Assembly: GCA_016841905.1 (NCBI GenBank)
Contig: JAENYF010000011.1
Coordinates: 1 to 64,000, forward strand
Length of the DNA stretch: 64,000 bases
Reading direction: 5' to 3'
Origin: Desulfoscipio geothermicus
GTDB lineage: Bacteria; Bacillota; Desulfotomaculia; Desulfotomaculales; Desulfallaceae
Part shown: piece after piece, positions 13,244 to 58,479 of the stretch
How positions within the stretch are numbered: the first letter of the stretch is position 1
How the letters are laid out: each line of letters starts with the position of its first letter
Notes under the pieces: model-generated
Seen by the model: only the letters and a program-made list of their open reading frames with translations
The model's database searches: none
Told to the model about the DNA's origin: nothing
Translations under genes and position numbers: made by a program

Positions 13244-15730
13244 TTATTTAACCACAATATTCACTAACTTCCCGGGCACCGGGATCACTTTAACCACCTT
13301 TTTATCACCGATCAGTTCCAGTACTTTTTCCTGCTGCATCACCAGCTCGCGCATGGCGTCTGGCTTGATGTCGGCAGGCACTAGCATGCGGTCGCGCACC
13401 TTCCCGTTTATCTGTACAACGATGGTTATTTCATCCTCAACGATAGCCTGGGGATCATATTCAGGCCACGGCCGGGCATGGATACTGCCCTCATGCCCGG
13501 TTAACTCCCAAAGTTCCTCAGTGATGTGGGGGGCAAAGGGGGCAAGCATCAGCAGCAGAGCCTTCACTGCCTCGCGCAAAACCCCGGGATCACGGTCAAA
13601 CTCGGGCACTTCCCGGTACTGGTACATAGCATTGACCAGTTCCATTATGGCGCTCACCGCGGTATTAAAATTAAACCGATTGCCCACGTCTTCAGTAACC
13701 TTTTTAATAGCCAGGTGGGTCATCCGGCGCATGTCCTTGTTGACCCCCACCAAATTATCTGCCGGGCTTATATCCCCACCTGCCGCCAGCGTATCGCCCA
13801 GCGGCGCCACCAAGCGCCATACCCGGTTCAGAAAGCGGTAACTGCCCTCCACTCCCTGGTCGCTCCATTCCAGGTCACGTTCGGGGGGTGAAGCAAATAA
13901 AATAAACAGACGTGCAGTGTCAGCGCCATAAGTGGCCACGATATCCTCCGGGCTGACCACGTTACCCTTGGATTTACTCATTTTAGCCCCGTCTTTAAGC
14001 ACCATGCCCTGGGTAAGCAGGTTGGTAAAAGGTTCATCATTAAAGACCAGTTTTAAGTCATAAAGCACCTTGGTGATAAACCGGCTGTACAGCAGATGCA
14101 AAATAGCGTGTTCCACACCGCCGATATACTGATCAACCGGCAGCCATTGCTTTACTTTATCCAGATCCCAGGCATTGTCCGCATTGCGGGAGCTAGTATA
14201 ACGGTAATAGTAAAAGGATGAACACATAAAAGTATCCATGGTATCGGTTTCCCGGCAGGCCGGGCCGCCGCAAGTCGGACAAGTTGTATGCACAAAGTCT
14301 GCGTGATCCGCCAGCGGGGAACGGCCGGTGGGTTTAAAGGCCACATCCATGGGCAGCATCACCGGCAAATCTGCATCAGGCACCGGCACGGCGCCGCACT
14401 TATTGCAATAAACTATGGGAATAGGCGCACCCCAGTAACGCTGCCGGGAAATAAGCCAGTCCCGCAAACGGTAGTTAACCCTTCCTTCACCCCACCCCTG
14501 TTCCTGCAAAAATTTTATCACATTGGTAATACCCTGCCGGTTAGGAGTGCCGCTAAAGGGCCCTGAATTAACCATCAGCCCTTCGTCCTCGAAGGCCTCG
14601 GTCATAGCAACGGGATCCAGGGTAACTCCCTCGGGCTGAATGACCACCCGGACTGGCAGGTTATACTTCCGTGCAAACTCAAAGTCCCGCTGGTCATGGG
14701 CCGGTACCGCCATAACGGCACCGGTACCGTATTCCACCAGAACGTAATTGGCCACCATAATAGGCACTTTATCGCCGTTTACCGGGTTAATGCAGTAAGC
14801 TCCGGTAAACAACCCGATTTTTTCCGCCTCGGTGGAAGTACGGGCCAGTTCACTTAAATTGCGCACCTTTTGCACAAACTCCTTGATTTCACCGGCTTGC
14901 GATTTACCTTCAATTAATTTTTCCACCAGGGGATGTTCGGGCGCCAGCACCATATAGGTAACGCCGTAAATAGTATCCGGGCGGGTAGTGTATATAGCAA
15001 CGGTTTCACCCATGCCATCGACCGGGAAACTAACCTCGGCGCCTTCACTGCGCCCAATCCAGTTGTCCTGCATAATTTTAACTTTATCCGGCCAGCCGCT
15101 AAGCTTTTCCAGGTCGGTCAGCAACCGGTCGGCATAGTCAGTGATCTTTAAAAACCACTGTTCCAGCTCCCTTTTTTCCACCACACTGTCGCAGCGCTCA
15201 CAGGAGCCTTCCTTGACCTGCTCGTTGGCCAAAACGGTGGCACAGGAGGGGCACCAGTTTACGGCAGATTTCTTTTTGTAGGCCAATCCATGGTGATAGA
15301 GCTGTAAAAACAGCCACTGGGTCCATTTATAATAACCCGGGTGACACGTGGCCACCTCCCGGTTCCAGTCGTAGCTGAGACCCAATTGTTTAAGCTGAGC
15401 CCGCATGGCATCAATATTATCCGTCGTCCACCGGGCCGGGTGCATTGCACCGTGCTTAATGGCGGCATTCTCCGCCGGCAGGCCAAAGGCGTCCCAGCCC
15501 ATCGGATGCAGCACATTATAGCCCTGCATCGTCTTAAACCGGGCAACCACATCGCCAATGGAATAGTTACGCACATGTCCCATATGTAACTTACCTGAAG
15601 GATAAGGGAACATTTCCAGACAATAATATTTGGGCCGATCACTAAAATCGGGCACAGTATAGCTATCCTGTTCAGCCCATTTTTCCTGCCACTTCGCTTC
15701 TATTTCCTTAAATTCATAGCGATCCTTCAT
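13244..15730 (-). CDS. leuS: Leucyl-tRNA synthetase
   Basis: About 828 residues, full length for a bacterial LeuRS. It charges tRNA-Leu with leucine in the cytosol. The class I HIGH motif is seen as [15 protein letters not shown], the zinc-ribbon cysteines as CPSCATVL with CERC, the editing CP1 domain spans roughly residues 220-420 with [15 protein letters not shown], and [10 protein letters not shown] lies near 582. The ATG at 15730 follows GGGAGGAAGTC and is preferred to an upstream TTG. Expression is governed by the T-box leader just upstream, which contains a tRNA-Ala gene. Confidence 0.98.
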
Positions 15731-15804
15731 GACTTCCTCCCGTACGTTCAATAATTAACATTGTTGCTACCCGAATCCAATATTATCACATTTTAGCTGA
15801 TTAT

Positions 15805-16085
15805 GAAAACAAACAAAAACCCCTCATCCCATAAGGGACGAGAGGTTGATCTCGCGATACCACCCTAATTGATAAAGTCTTTTGGTGGAGATGAGGGGGC
15901 TCGAACCCCTGACCTCCTGAATGCCATTCAGGCGCTCTCCCAGCTGAGCTACACCCCCATGACTTTACCCACTTGGTGCGTTAACGGCACAGGCCGTCCC
16001 GGTTTACTTACTTCAACCAGGCAACTCCGGGGCGAGTTCATTCGCCATACCCACCGCCTCGCACCAACCGGCGGCTCTCTTTAAG
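15805..16085 (-). promoter_or_regulatory. Leucine T-box riboswitch leader of leuS, interrupted by a tRNA gene
   Basis: On the minus strand all T-box parts are present in order. Stem I begins near 16085 with AGAGAGCC and GGTTGGTG; the specifier segment GAACTCGCCCCGG gives codon CTC (16036-16034), leucine, as expected for leuS. A small hairpin ACGGC/GCCGT follows. The T-box motif AGGGTGGTATCGCG is at 15866-15853, and its UGGU bulge would pair with an acceptor end carrying A73. The terminator is the stem CTCGTCCC/GGGATGAG with a T-rich tail (to about 15805). Stem III is GGTAAAGTC (15969-15961) paired with GACTTTATC (15879-15871), nine pairs with one G-U; its loop is a whole tRNA-Ala gene. When uncharged tRNA-Leu binds, the antiterminator should form and leuS is read. 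Confidence 0.93.
15883..15958 (-). tRNA. tRNA-Ala (anticodon GGC), nested in the leuS T-box leader
   Basis: Seventy-six bases fold as a complete cloverleaf. The acceptor stem GGGGGTG/CATCTCC carries G3-U70, the alanine identity pair. The D arm is GCTC/GAGC, the anticodon arm CCTGA/TCAGG with GGC at 15925-15923, and the T arm has GGTTCGA. A73 and an encoded CCA end it at 15883. Two bases separate its 5-prime end from one arm of T-box stem III and three bases separate CCA from the other arm. It can be made only from the leuS leader promoter, upstream of the attenuator, so its supply should not depend on whether leuS is read through. Nothing in the cloverleaf looks decayed. Confidence 0.97.
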
Positions 16086-16142
16086 AGTATACGGCAATTT
16101 ACTATTCCCCTTCATAATTATTACTTTATTGTACTGAAGCTA

Positions 16143-32792: not shown

Positions 32793-33059
32793 GCAAATGC
32801 CATCCTTTCTTTTCATTGATAACTATCCGATATATAAATTATATCTGAAACATCACCATCCGGCTACGTAAGTCAAGGCGATTTTCCACCATAGCTTGGC
32901 TATATCTCGGTGGCAATAGTCAATATTTGGAATTGATGTCTAACTACAAATTTGTCGTAATTGTTTGTTAAGTGACTAAAAAACATACACATTTGTCATA
33001 ATACAACTTATTGTCTATAAAATTAGCGAATTTTTGTTGTGTTTAGAATTAATTTAATC

Positions 33060-33075
33060 TGGCATGAAAATTGCT
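33060..33075 (+). promoter_or_regulatory. Sigma-54 type promoter, copy A
   Basis: TGGCATG, four bases, TTGCT: GG at 33061-33062 and GC at 33073-33074 have the -24/-12 spacing of sigma-54 promoters. The predicted start is near 33086. A near-perfect ACAAATTTGT palindrome lies about 110 bases upstream (near 32948) and could be an activator site. The same element with flanking similarity recurs at 44894. Confidence 0.7.
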
Positions 33076-33085
33076 TTTAGTTAGT

Positions 33086-33192
33086 AATAGTGAATGTAAT
33101 ATGGTAAGAAGGATACCCCCTGAGTATACTCAATAAACCCCTCTCTTTATCTATACTTAGTTTTGTTCCCTCTCATCGAGGGAATTTTTTTT
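33086..33192 (+). ncRNA. Putative sigma-54-dependent small RNA, copy A
   Basis: The unit runs from the predicted -24/-12 start to a strong terminator (TTCCCTC 33166-33172 paired with GAGGGAA 33178-33184, then T8), about 107 bases. It has no credible coding frame with a ribosome site. A single-stranded pyrimidine tract ACCCCTCTC (33137-33145) is complementary to Shine-Dalgarno sequences, as in known C-rich regulatory RNAs. GAGTATACTC (33122-33131) is palindromic. Order, C-tract and terminator match copy B at 44920-45004. Role as a trans-acting RNA is inference. Confidence 0.6.
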
Positions 33193-33330
33193 GCCTTGCT
33201 TACCGGGAAAAAACCTGCACTTATGGCCGGCTTCATCACCTCTTGGCTAATTTGACGTTTACAATTCACTTTAAAAGCCATTATATAAATGGAAGTACTG
33301 TTTAAAATAATAACCAGGAGCGTAACATTG

Positions 33331-44477: not shown

Positions 44478-44893
44478 TTTCAGTCAACGTATGCGTCACT
44501 CAATGTTCTGTTTCCACAAGGACATAAGCCATTGTAGACATTCTAGTATCTTTTTCATAGTCTTGAAGCATGTCCATATTTGTGAATTTCATTTGTTTTA
44601 CTACATTAAGTTTATTGTAAATAACAAAAAAAAGCTCTCACCAAGAGTAACTTTCGCAGTTCGCTAACCCTAAATACTTGTCGATTTGTTTGTCTTTTAA
44701 TATGTCCGGTTTTTGGTCATACAGTCAATCGCTAACATTATACCGGTTGTGGCAATTGTTTCTCAAGCTACACCAGCAGTTTTATACGGTCAAGTGTAAA
44801 ATAAGCAAACAGTATTTTAGCACGCAGCGTTTTTGTCTCCAGCAACCTTTAATTTTTGTTAGAAATTTGGCGGCTAGAAAAATTAGTTTGAAC
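44478..44893. other. Non-coding stretch upstream of sigma-54 copy B
   Basis: No credible gene. It contains AATTTTTGTT (44851-44860), also found upstream of copy A (33029-33038), so similarity between the two elements starts before the promoter. An activator site may lie here but none was fixed. Confidence 0.4.
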
Positions 44894-44909
44894 TGGCATG
44901 ATTTTTGCT
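44894..44909 (+). promoter_or_regulatory. Sigma-54 type promoter, copy B
   Basis: TGGCATG, four bases, TTGCT: GG at 44895-44896 and GC at 44907-44908 keep exact -24/-12 spacing. The predicted start is near 44920. Confidence 0.7.
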
Positions 44910-44919
44910 ATTATATAGT

Positions 44920-45004
44920 GTTGAATGTGTTCATAAAACCCCTCCTCTTTTCAAACATAATTTTTCTTGTTCCCTCCAATTTAAGTGTGAGGGAATCTTT
45001 TTTT
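44920..45004 (+). ncRNA. Putative sigma-54-dependent small RNA, copy B
   Basis: About 85 bases from the predicted start to the terminator (TTCCCTC 44970-44976 paired with GAGGGAA 44989-44995, T-rich tail). It carries ACCCCTCCTC (44938-44947), which contains the anti-Shine-Dalgarno hexamer CCTCCT. Promoter, C-tract and terminator stem match copy A in the same order while spacer and loop differ, the pattern expected of conserved RNA function. No coding frame with a ribosome site was found. Downstream sequence to 45321 contains no gene but shares CCTGCACT-x-ATG with copy A. Confidence 0.6.
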
Positions 45005-45321
45005 GTCATAAACGCGATAAGTCGTTGCCGCCACCAAAACGCCTGCACTCATGCCCACACCGGCACCTACCGCCAAAGTTTATCAACACAGCTGGCAGAG
45101 CAATATAAAGAGGCCGGTCCAGTTCAGCAGGCCGGCCGTTATATATCACCTTTAAGCATCGCTACGTTTTGGCAGTCATAGAGTATGCCCCGGGCGCCAG
45201 TACGCATTCCTCCCTCGCAGCCTCAAGATTAAACCTTACTCGTCTGAGCAGCACCACAGATTGCTCGCCTGACTTTCCTGCTTTTACATACTTTCTACAC
45301 TATAGGTAATGCCCAGGCCTT

Positions 45322-52329: not shown

Positions 52330-52452
52330 AAAAAAGCCACGGTTGATATTTTAAAAATATCTCCCAGGCTTTTATCCTTCCGTGTACACAGTAGACTGTG
52401 CGTTTTATCTTGGACCAGACCAGTCAGGAATTCAAACTGCGGAACCCTATAA
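52330..52452 (-). promoter_or_regulatory. Guanidine-I (ykkC) riboswitch with terminator
   Basis: On the minus strand the conserved blocks occur in order: AGGGTTCCGC (52448-52439), CTGGTCTGGTCCAAGA, ACGCAC, ACACGGAAGGATAAAAGCC and TGGGAGA. The 3-prime AAAGCC of the aptamer can instead pair with GGCTTTTTT around an inner GATATTTTTAAAATATC hairpin, forming a terminator (about 52372-52331). Guanidine should stabilise the aptamer and let the exporter gene be read. Confidence 0.93.
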
Positions 52453-52529
52453 AACTTTAAGATATTAAGTTTTTTTCTACGTTAAATCATAGCAAAAGAC
52501 TTATGGTTAGTCAATGATTTCGGCAGGGC

Positions 52530-58013: not shown

Positions 58014-58023
58014 AAATGCCGAA

Positions 58024-58124
58024 TCAAACTCTCCTTCTCGCAATGGAAGGTGCGACAGTTTCCCGTCGAACCCAATGGCCAATTAACCATGACTGAATAG
58101 CATTAGGTTATATGGCTCGAAGAG
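58024..58124 (-). promoter_or_regulatory. Moco-type RNA motif, copy 1
   Basis: Minus-strand RNA begins CTCTTCGAGCC, contains GGCCATTGGGT, CGACGGGAAACTGTCG and ends CACCTTCCATTGCGAGAAGG. The last part and the stem with a GAAA-type loop match the Moco RNA motif, which senses molybdenum or tungsten cofactor. It is followed by a terminator. Similar in block order to copy 2, but more diverged. Family call from memory of the E. coli moaA leader. Confidence 0.5.
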
Positions 58125-58142
58125 CACCGTATGAAATTATAA

Positions 58143-58175: not shown

Positions 58176-58187
58176 ACAACCACGATC

Positions 58188-58290
58188 AAGCTCTATTCCC
58201 CTTTCCACAATGGGAGGCACATCGGTTTCCCCATGTACCCATAGGCCGGGCAACCATACCTTTAAGTCAGGTTACCAGACTCGGAGACAT
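58188..58290 (-). promoter_or_regulatory. Moco-type RNA motif, copy 2
   Basis: Minus-strand RNA holds GTCTCCGAG, GGTTGCCCGGCCTATGGGT, ACATGGGGAAACCGATGT and GCCTCCCATTGTGGAAAGG. The last block is nearly identical to the GCCUCCC...UGGAAAGG part of the E. coli moaA leader, so this copy is the better match to the Moco motif. A terminator follows, then copy 1, giving a tandem arrangement. No molybdenum or tungsten gene follows within the window. A TTGACT/TATAAT pair with only 15 bases between lies upstream at 58364-58338. Confidence 0.6.
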
Positions 58291-58479
58291 ATTAACTTTT
58301 TTATTGAATTTGTGTTCATTGTAGACTATATTAACAGATTATAGTATTTACAAAATATAGTCAAGGTGTTTTAAAACAATCATCATAGTTTAAATGTTTT
58401 TAAATTTTAAAATAAGCTACGATGGGCGGGGTCTTAAAAGTACTAGCCAATTTCACCGTAATCACTTTATTCCAAATGA

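Follow-up and report, generated by a model that had tools for sequence, protein, structure and literature searches.

Two sibling sigma-54-type transcription units in a Clostridia-type genome are probable genes for a small regulatory RNA

In Proteobacteria, the sigma-54-controlled sibling RNAs Qrr, GlmY/GlmZ and CrcZ/CrcY act as tightly activator-dependent switches. GlmY/GlmZ and CrcZ/CrcY are sigma-54-dependent regulatory RNAs of Proteobacteria, longer than the RNAs predicted here, with structures of their own and decoy functions. The Qrr RNAs end at rho-independent terminators, and their activation by LuxO depends on sigma-54. These short Vibrio RNAs are encoded as siblings at separate sites, share a common core and answer to a response regulator, LuxO, as activator (PMC4211561). 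Among Firmicutes, the RsaE/RoxS RNAs of Bacilli and Staphylococci and their C-rich relatives have single-stranded stretches rich in C, for which pairing with Shine-Dalgarno sequences has been proposed; RoxS is driven by the two-component regulators ResD/SrrA and not by sigma-54 (PMC4409812).

Clostridia have well-characterised sigma-54 regulons (PMC6615313, PMC7438776). The Clostridiales consensus is TTGGCATNNNNNTTGCT, with activator sites upstream (PMC6615313), and the SigL promoters of C. difficile have the same form, for example ATGGCATAATAATTGCTTA (PMC7438776). The described targets are metabolic operons, and PMC6615313 mentions no small RNA. In the literature that we searched, which covered few subscription journals, no sigma-54-controlled sibling small RNAs were found in Gram-positive bacteria. 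Here we describe two copies, A and B, of a sigma-54-type unit in a window of 64 kb, this being the whole stretch of DNA analysed, which belongs to the genome (3.08 Mb in 91 contigs) of a spore-forming bacterium of the desulfotomaculum type. That genome encodes RpoN and about nine full-length activators plus some partial activator-domain matches, none of them within the window. The first-pass annotation of this DNA had regarded such control as rare outside Proteobacteria, a view that these genes and the published Clostridia regulons contradict: sigma-54 itself is ordinary in Clostridia and the unusual part is the product.

Copy A (33060-33192, +) is a compact predicted transcription unit consisting of a sigma-54 promoter (TGGCATGAAAATTGCT), a G-poor body of ~79 nt and a strong terminator with T8. 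The promoter (-24 GG/-12 GC), TGGCATGAAAATTGC at 33060-33074 (+), differs from the Clostridiales consensus at one position and has the spacing TGGCA-N6-TTGC, with 10 bases from GG to GC as in the canonical GG-N10-GC. Within the window, only copies A and B have a single mismatch to this consensus, and they are the top two sigma-54 matches; the exact pattern TGGCAT-N5-TTGCT is expected ~0.05 times per 64 kb by Markov simulation. The sigma-54-type promoter recognised in the first-pass annotation was thus confirmed, with a correction to the N7 spacing of its proposed search pattern, which has no match at copy A. Based on promoter geometry, the RNA body would start 12 nt past the -12 C and run to the terminator (33086-33164, +). 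It contains a CCCCC tract (33116-33120, +) and a CCCCTCTC tract (33138-33145, +), the latter partly single-stranded in the predicted fold, with its 5' part most accessible. The CU-rich tract is common to copies A and B as AAACCCCTC. The intrinsic terminator, GTTCCCTC-TCATC-GAGGGAAT plus T8 (33165-33192, +; stem 33165-33185, T8 33185-33192), has a stability of ~-11.5 kcal/mol, and a terminator scan returned two overlapping terminator-like sites compared with 0.2 in shuffles. The fold of the whole copy A transcript is not unusual relative to expectation (z -0.98).

A terminator-based pattern search revealed an orthologue of copy A in Sporotomaculum syntrophicum FB (NZ_LSRS01000005), flanked by the same metallo-beta-lactamase-fold and HD genes. 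The two promoters are identical at 17/17 aligned bases and the terminators at 27/27, while the bodies share 80% identity and differ by indels that shift the frame, in agreement with the earlier description of a terminated and probably non-coding transcript. Upstream of copy A, at about -70 to -135 (32950-33015, +), there are TTTGTC elements (ATTTGTCGTAAT, CATTTGTCATAAT, TTATTGTC) that may represent activator-binding sites. The region from -150 to -26 shows 77% identity with S. syntrophicum and keeps these elements in part. The entire intergenic region around copy A is conserved in S. syntrophicum and, therefore, the boundaries of the module are not visible there.

Such boundaries are evident in the case of copy B (44894-45005), the second copy that the first-pass annotation had announced, which is made up of TGGCATGATTTTTGC, CATAAAACCCCTCCTCTTTT and a terminator TTGTTCCCTCC-loop-GAGGGAA-T7. 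Its sigma-54 promoter TGGCATGATTTTTGC (44894-44908, +) also has one mismatch to the Clostridiales consensus; the predicted RNA body (44920-44968, +) has an accessible CCCCTCCTCTTTT (44939-44951) in its predicted fold; and the terminator, with GTTCCCTCC-loop-GAGGGAA and T7 (44969-45004, +), is identical to that of S. syntrophicum at 35/36 positions. None of 300 dinucleotide shuffles aligned as well as copies A and B do with each other, along the whole unit. Between copy B and its S. syntrophicum orthologue, identity reaches 94% in the promoter, 84% in the body, 97% in the terminator and 83% in an upstream block (44691-44770, +) that lies between diverged flanks and is a candidate enhancer. The flanks drop to ~20% on both sides, and past the terminator the similarity stops abruptly. 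Both copies are thus preceded by conserved blocks that are candidate activator sites. Used as a query for additional members of a regulon, the copy B block singled out only the known B-type copies.

Between the copy B block and the promoter there are ~100 bp (44766-44868) that are absent from S. syntrophicum. They were probably lost in that species, since the B-type copy of a third genome has them. Looping lets sigma-54 activators tolerate such distance changes.

Sporotomaculum syntrophicum has orthologues of both A and B with the gene order of the window, the B orthologue being flanked by a PRPP synthetase gene and an FAD-dependent-oxidoreductase-like gene (named by eye). A covariance model (R1) built from A, B and the S. 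syntrophicum A orthologue recovered this B orthologue with an E value of 8e-8, as well as a copy in D. geothermicus with an E value of 3e-7, neither of which had been used in building the model. We infer the latter genome to be the D. geothermicus MAG BL5_bin.4. There the B-type copy has a glycine-betaine-type ABC transporter on one side and a convergent NUDIX gene on the other (names by eye). Its upstream 250 bp align with those of copy B and include the upstream block; promoter, CU tract and terminator are kept, with the CU tract altered and its CCCCTC core lost. None of 300 shuffles aligned with copy A as well as this copy does. Judging from the sequences, the module seems to have moved intact in D. 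geothermicus and, as it is kept between different genes, it would be independent of its neighbours.

In all five homologues the 7-bp terminator stem is the same and the promoter comes first, then the CU-rich tract and then the terminator, so that the block order predicted to be conserved in relatives is indeed conserved in this small set, which comes from three genomes within a single genus. Beyond these three genomes, model searches detected no clear homologue, either in the four remaining genomes of the genus or among 113 genomes from the rest of the order and 398 sampled across the phylum; the order and phylum searches used stricter filters, with which weak homologues could be missed. They gave weak matches, whose number was close to the chance expectation; those with sigma-54 promoters and terminators were rejected as homologues and treated as analogues. 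Exact composite patterns with over-narrow gaps missed copy A, and the terminator-based pattern found A, B and the S. syntrophicum A orthologue; a terminator pattern run over all genomes returned 15 stretches, among which the element was identified in the records of S. syntrophicum and of D. geothermicus. Among Rfam covariance models, that of Qrr included, no family matched these units above its gathering threshold, the best score of copy A being 16.7 bits against 49.5 needed.

We consider it probable that A and B are sibling sigma-54-driven genes encoding a small regulatory RNA that acts in trans and likely pairs with mRNAs. The RNAs are predicted to be ~107 nt long for copy A and ~86 nt for copy B. 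Sigma-54 polymerase would start each copy only in response to a signal received by an enhancer-binding protein, which would be encoded at another locus and probably occupy the conserved upstream blocks; transcription would end at the terminator of the unit itself. Once released, the RNA would expose a G-poor, CU-rich and mostly single-stranded tract, which would most likely pair with G-rich mRNA stretches, often at or near ribosome sites, and thereby reduce translation or stability. By analogy, A and B appear closest to Qrr or GlmY/GlmZ in the type of promoter and the number of siblings, and closest to RsaE/RoxS in their C-rich open tract. They have no sequence relation to Qrr, which act with Hfq in Gammaproteobacteria and not in a Clostridia-type genome such as this one, and no sequence match to RoxS. 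If expression and function are as proposed, the sigma-54 regulons of Clostridia as currently drawn leave out an RNA layer, which could be sought directly with the search patterns used here.

By analogy with the known RNAs, base pairing with mRNA would be the likeliest way for these RNAs to act. G is scarce in the bodies (8-14%) and C more frequent (14-22%), a composition that should help to keep the RNA open and available for pairing with G-rich mRNA. In predicted folds the CU-rich tract is single-stranded in B and in the S. syntrophicum A orthologue, and partly so in A. The more specific proposal of the first-pass annotation, an anti-Shine-Dalgarno tract, was not supported. Pairing with the consensus Shine-Dalgarno sequence was no better than in dinucleotide shuffles for copy A (p = 0.66), for copy B (p = 0.20) or in combination (p = 0.08), and the canonical match, when compared with RsaE/RoxS, is weak in copy A. 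The loss of the CCCCTC core in D. geothermicus also speaks against that proposal. A search for targets of the form GAGGGGTTT...ATG gave 13 matches and 13 in the reversed control, with no enrichment. In the window genome, the ribosome site of rpoA, AAGGAGGGGUUUAAAUC, complements AAACCCCUC(C), and two further genomes have nearly the same site; we regard rpoA as a coincidence candidate only. The RNA of D. geothermicus has no matching sequence.

The terminator itself may have a further function. Its stem is invariant in the five homologues, which makes a covariation test uninformative, and the invariant 5' arm UUGUUCCCUC may have a role beyond termination. This invariance among siblings exceeds what a terminator needs and would also suit a sigma-54 small RNA that titrates a protein or another RNA, as a decoy or sponge, instead of pairing with mRNAs. 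Such a function has precedents in GlmY and CrcZ, sigma-54 decoys of Proteobacteria (PMC4211561, PMC6292655). It is nevertheless unlikely here, given that the copies contain no repeated protein-binding motif (GGA loops or A-rich repeats) and that no Firmicute decoy target of such sequence is known. At the other extreme, a sigma-54-like word might lie near an unrelated terminator by chance. TGGCA-N6-TTGC with at most one mismatch is indeed common in the window (36 occurrences vs ~23 by chance), but chance does not account for the recurrence of the whole combination as copy B, in two orthologues and in a relocated homologue. With the unit repeated five times, sharp boundaries and relocation, coincidence is strongly disfavoured and scarcely credible as an explanation.

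The position of copy A raises the question of whether the unit is an attenuator, a 5' leader whose conserved hairpin would act as a conditional terminator and switch off the HD-domain gene behind it. The HD gene lies on the same strand, 139 nt past the T-run, and in S. syntrophicum copy B is followed, again on the same strand, by the PRPP synthetase gene. An independent small RNA nonetheless appears to fit the sequences better, because the downstream genes differ and the neighbour of copy A has a conserved promoter-like element of its own. This element, a sigma-A-like TTTACA-N17-TTATAT read from the sequence (33258-33286, +), is situated past the terminator and before the HD start codon (33331); its region is conserved in S. 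syntrophicum (85%), although the consensus scan did not list it. The HD gene is thus separate, as first proposed. A cis-leader of the HD gene would precede the same gene family in all copies, and this was not observed: the genes downstream are unrelated, namely the HD gene for A, an inserted convergent ADP-ribosylglycohydrolase gene for B in the window, the PRPP synthetase gene for B in S. syntrophicum, and the NUDIX gene, also convergent, in D. geothermicus. Since no alternative antiterminator pairing is conserved either, we find a leader quite improbable.

The unit could also encode a very small protein on an mRNA transcribed from the sigma-54 promoter. The D. geothermicus copy (L009, about 1550-1650) has AAAAAGGA-N7-ATG followed by 31 codons, with a plausible ribosome site, a possible frame that the other copies do not have, and pyrimidine-rich frames run open through the terminator of copy B. 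However, A and its S. syntrophicum orthologue do not have this ATG and differ by single-base indels in their bodies, the S. syntrophicum B tract has a 1-base deletion relative to B, the B copies have no ribosome site, and the terminator arms are conserved at the nucleotide level, which together make a coding function very improbable. As would be expected of a small RNA, the copies have their own promoter, an intrinsic terminator and no conserved frame, apart from the possible frame in one relative.

Units of the same anatomy and unrelated sequence were found in seven other Clostridia, from different families of the order and phylum (L010, L012/L014, L016, L022, L128, L132, L138), in an analogue set biased by a model that rewards promoter and T-run. 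It is conceivable, although we hold this only tentatively, that Clostridia repeatedly use sigma-54 for short, G-poor, CU-rich, terminated small RNAs, and that A and B are one family of an unrecognised class. Conservation among the analogues is seen in the L014/L012 pair only, in which the body AAGCATAACTCCTTTCCTATAAG is conserved between two species. This unit (L014, 1503-1610; L012, reverse), from two species of one genus in another family, has a sigma-54 promoter, a AACTCCTTTCC tract and a terminator and lies beside a convergent gene, which makes it a separate candidate sigma-54 small RNA. L132, L138, L128, L016, L022 and L010 have a sigma-54 promoter, a CU- or C-rich body and a terminator, without an obvious downstream mRNA. 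Other matches, for example L079, L081 and L130, were rejected as small RNAs and are ordinary sigma-54 mRNAs.

The window contains other structured RNAs, all on the minus strand. The leucyl-tRNA synthetase gene (13244-15751, -) has a T-box leader (135.9 bits) at 15831-16124 (-), inside which there is a complete tRNA-Ala(GGC) with CCA (15883-15958, -). The tRNA occupies the loop of the stem that immediately precedes the T-box antiterminator, as GGGTAAAGTCAT-[tRNA]-AAAAGACTTTATC, and a tRNA gene nested in a T-box riboswitch looks very unusual. Two tandem molybdenum-cofactor riboswitch aptamers are located at 58015-58134 and 58182-58298 (-), and a Guanidine-I riboswitch aptamer at 52359-52461 (-).
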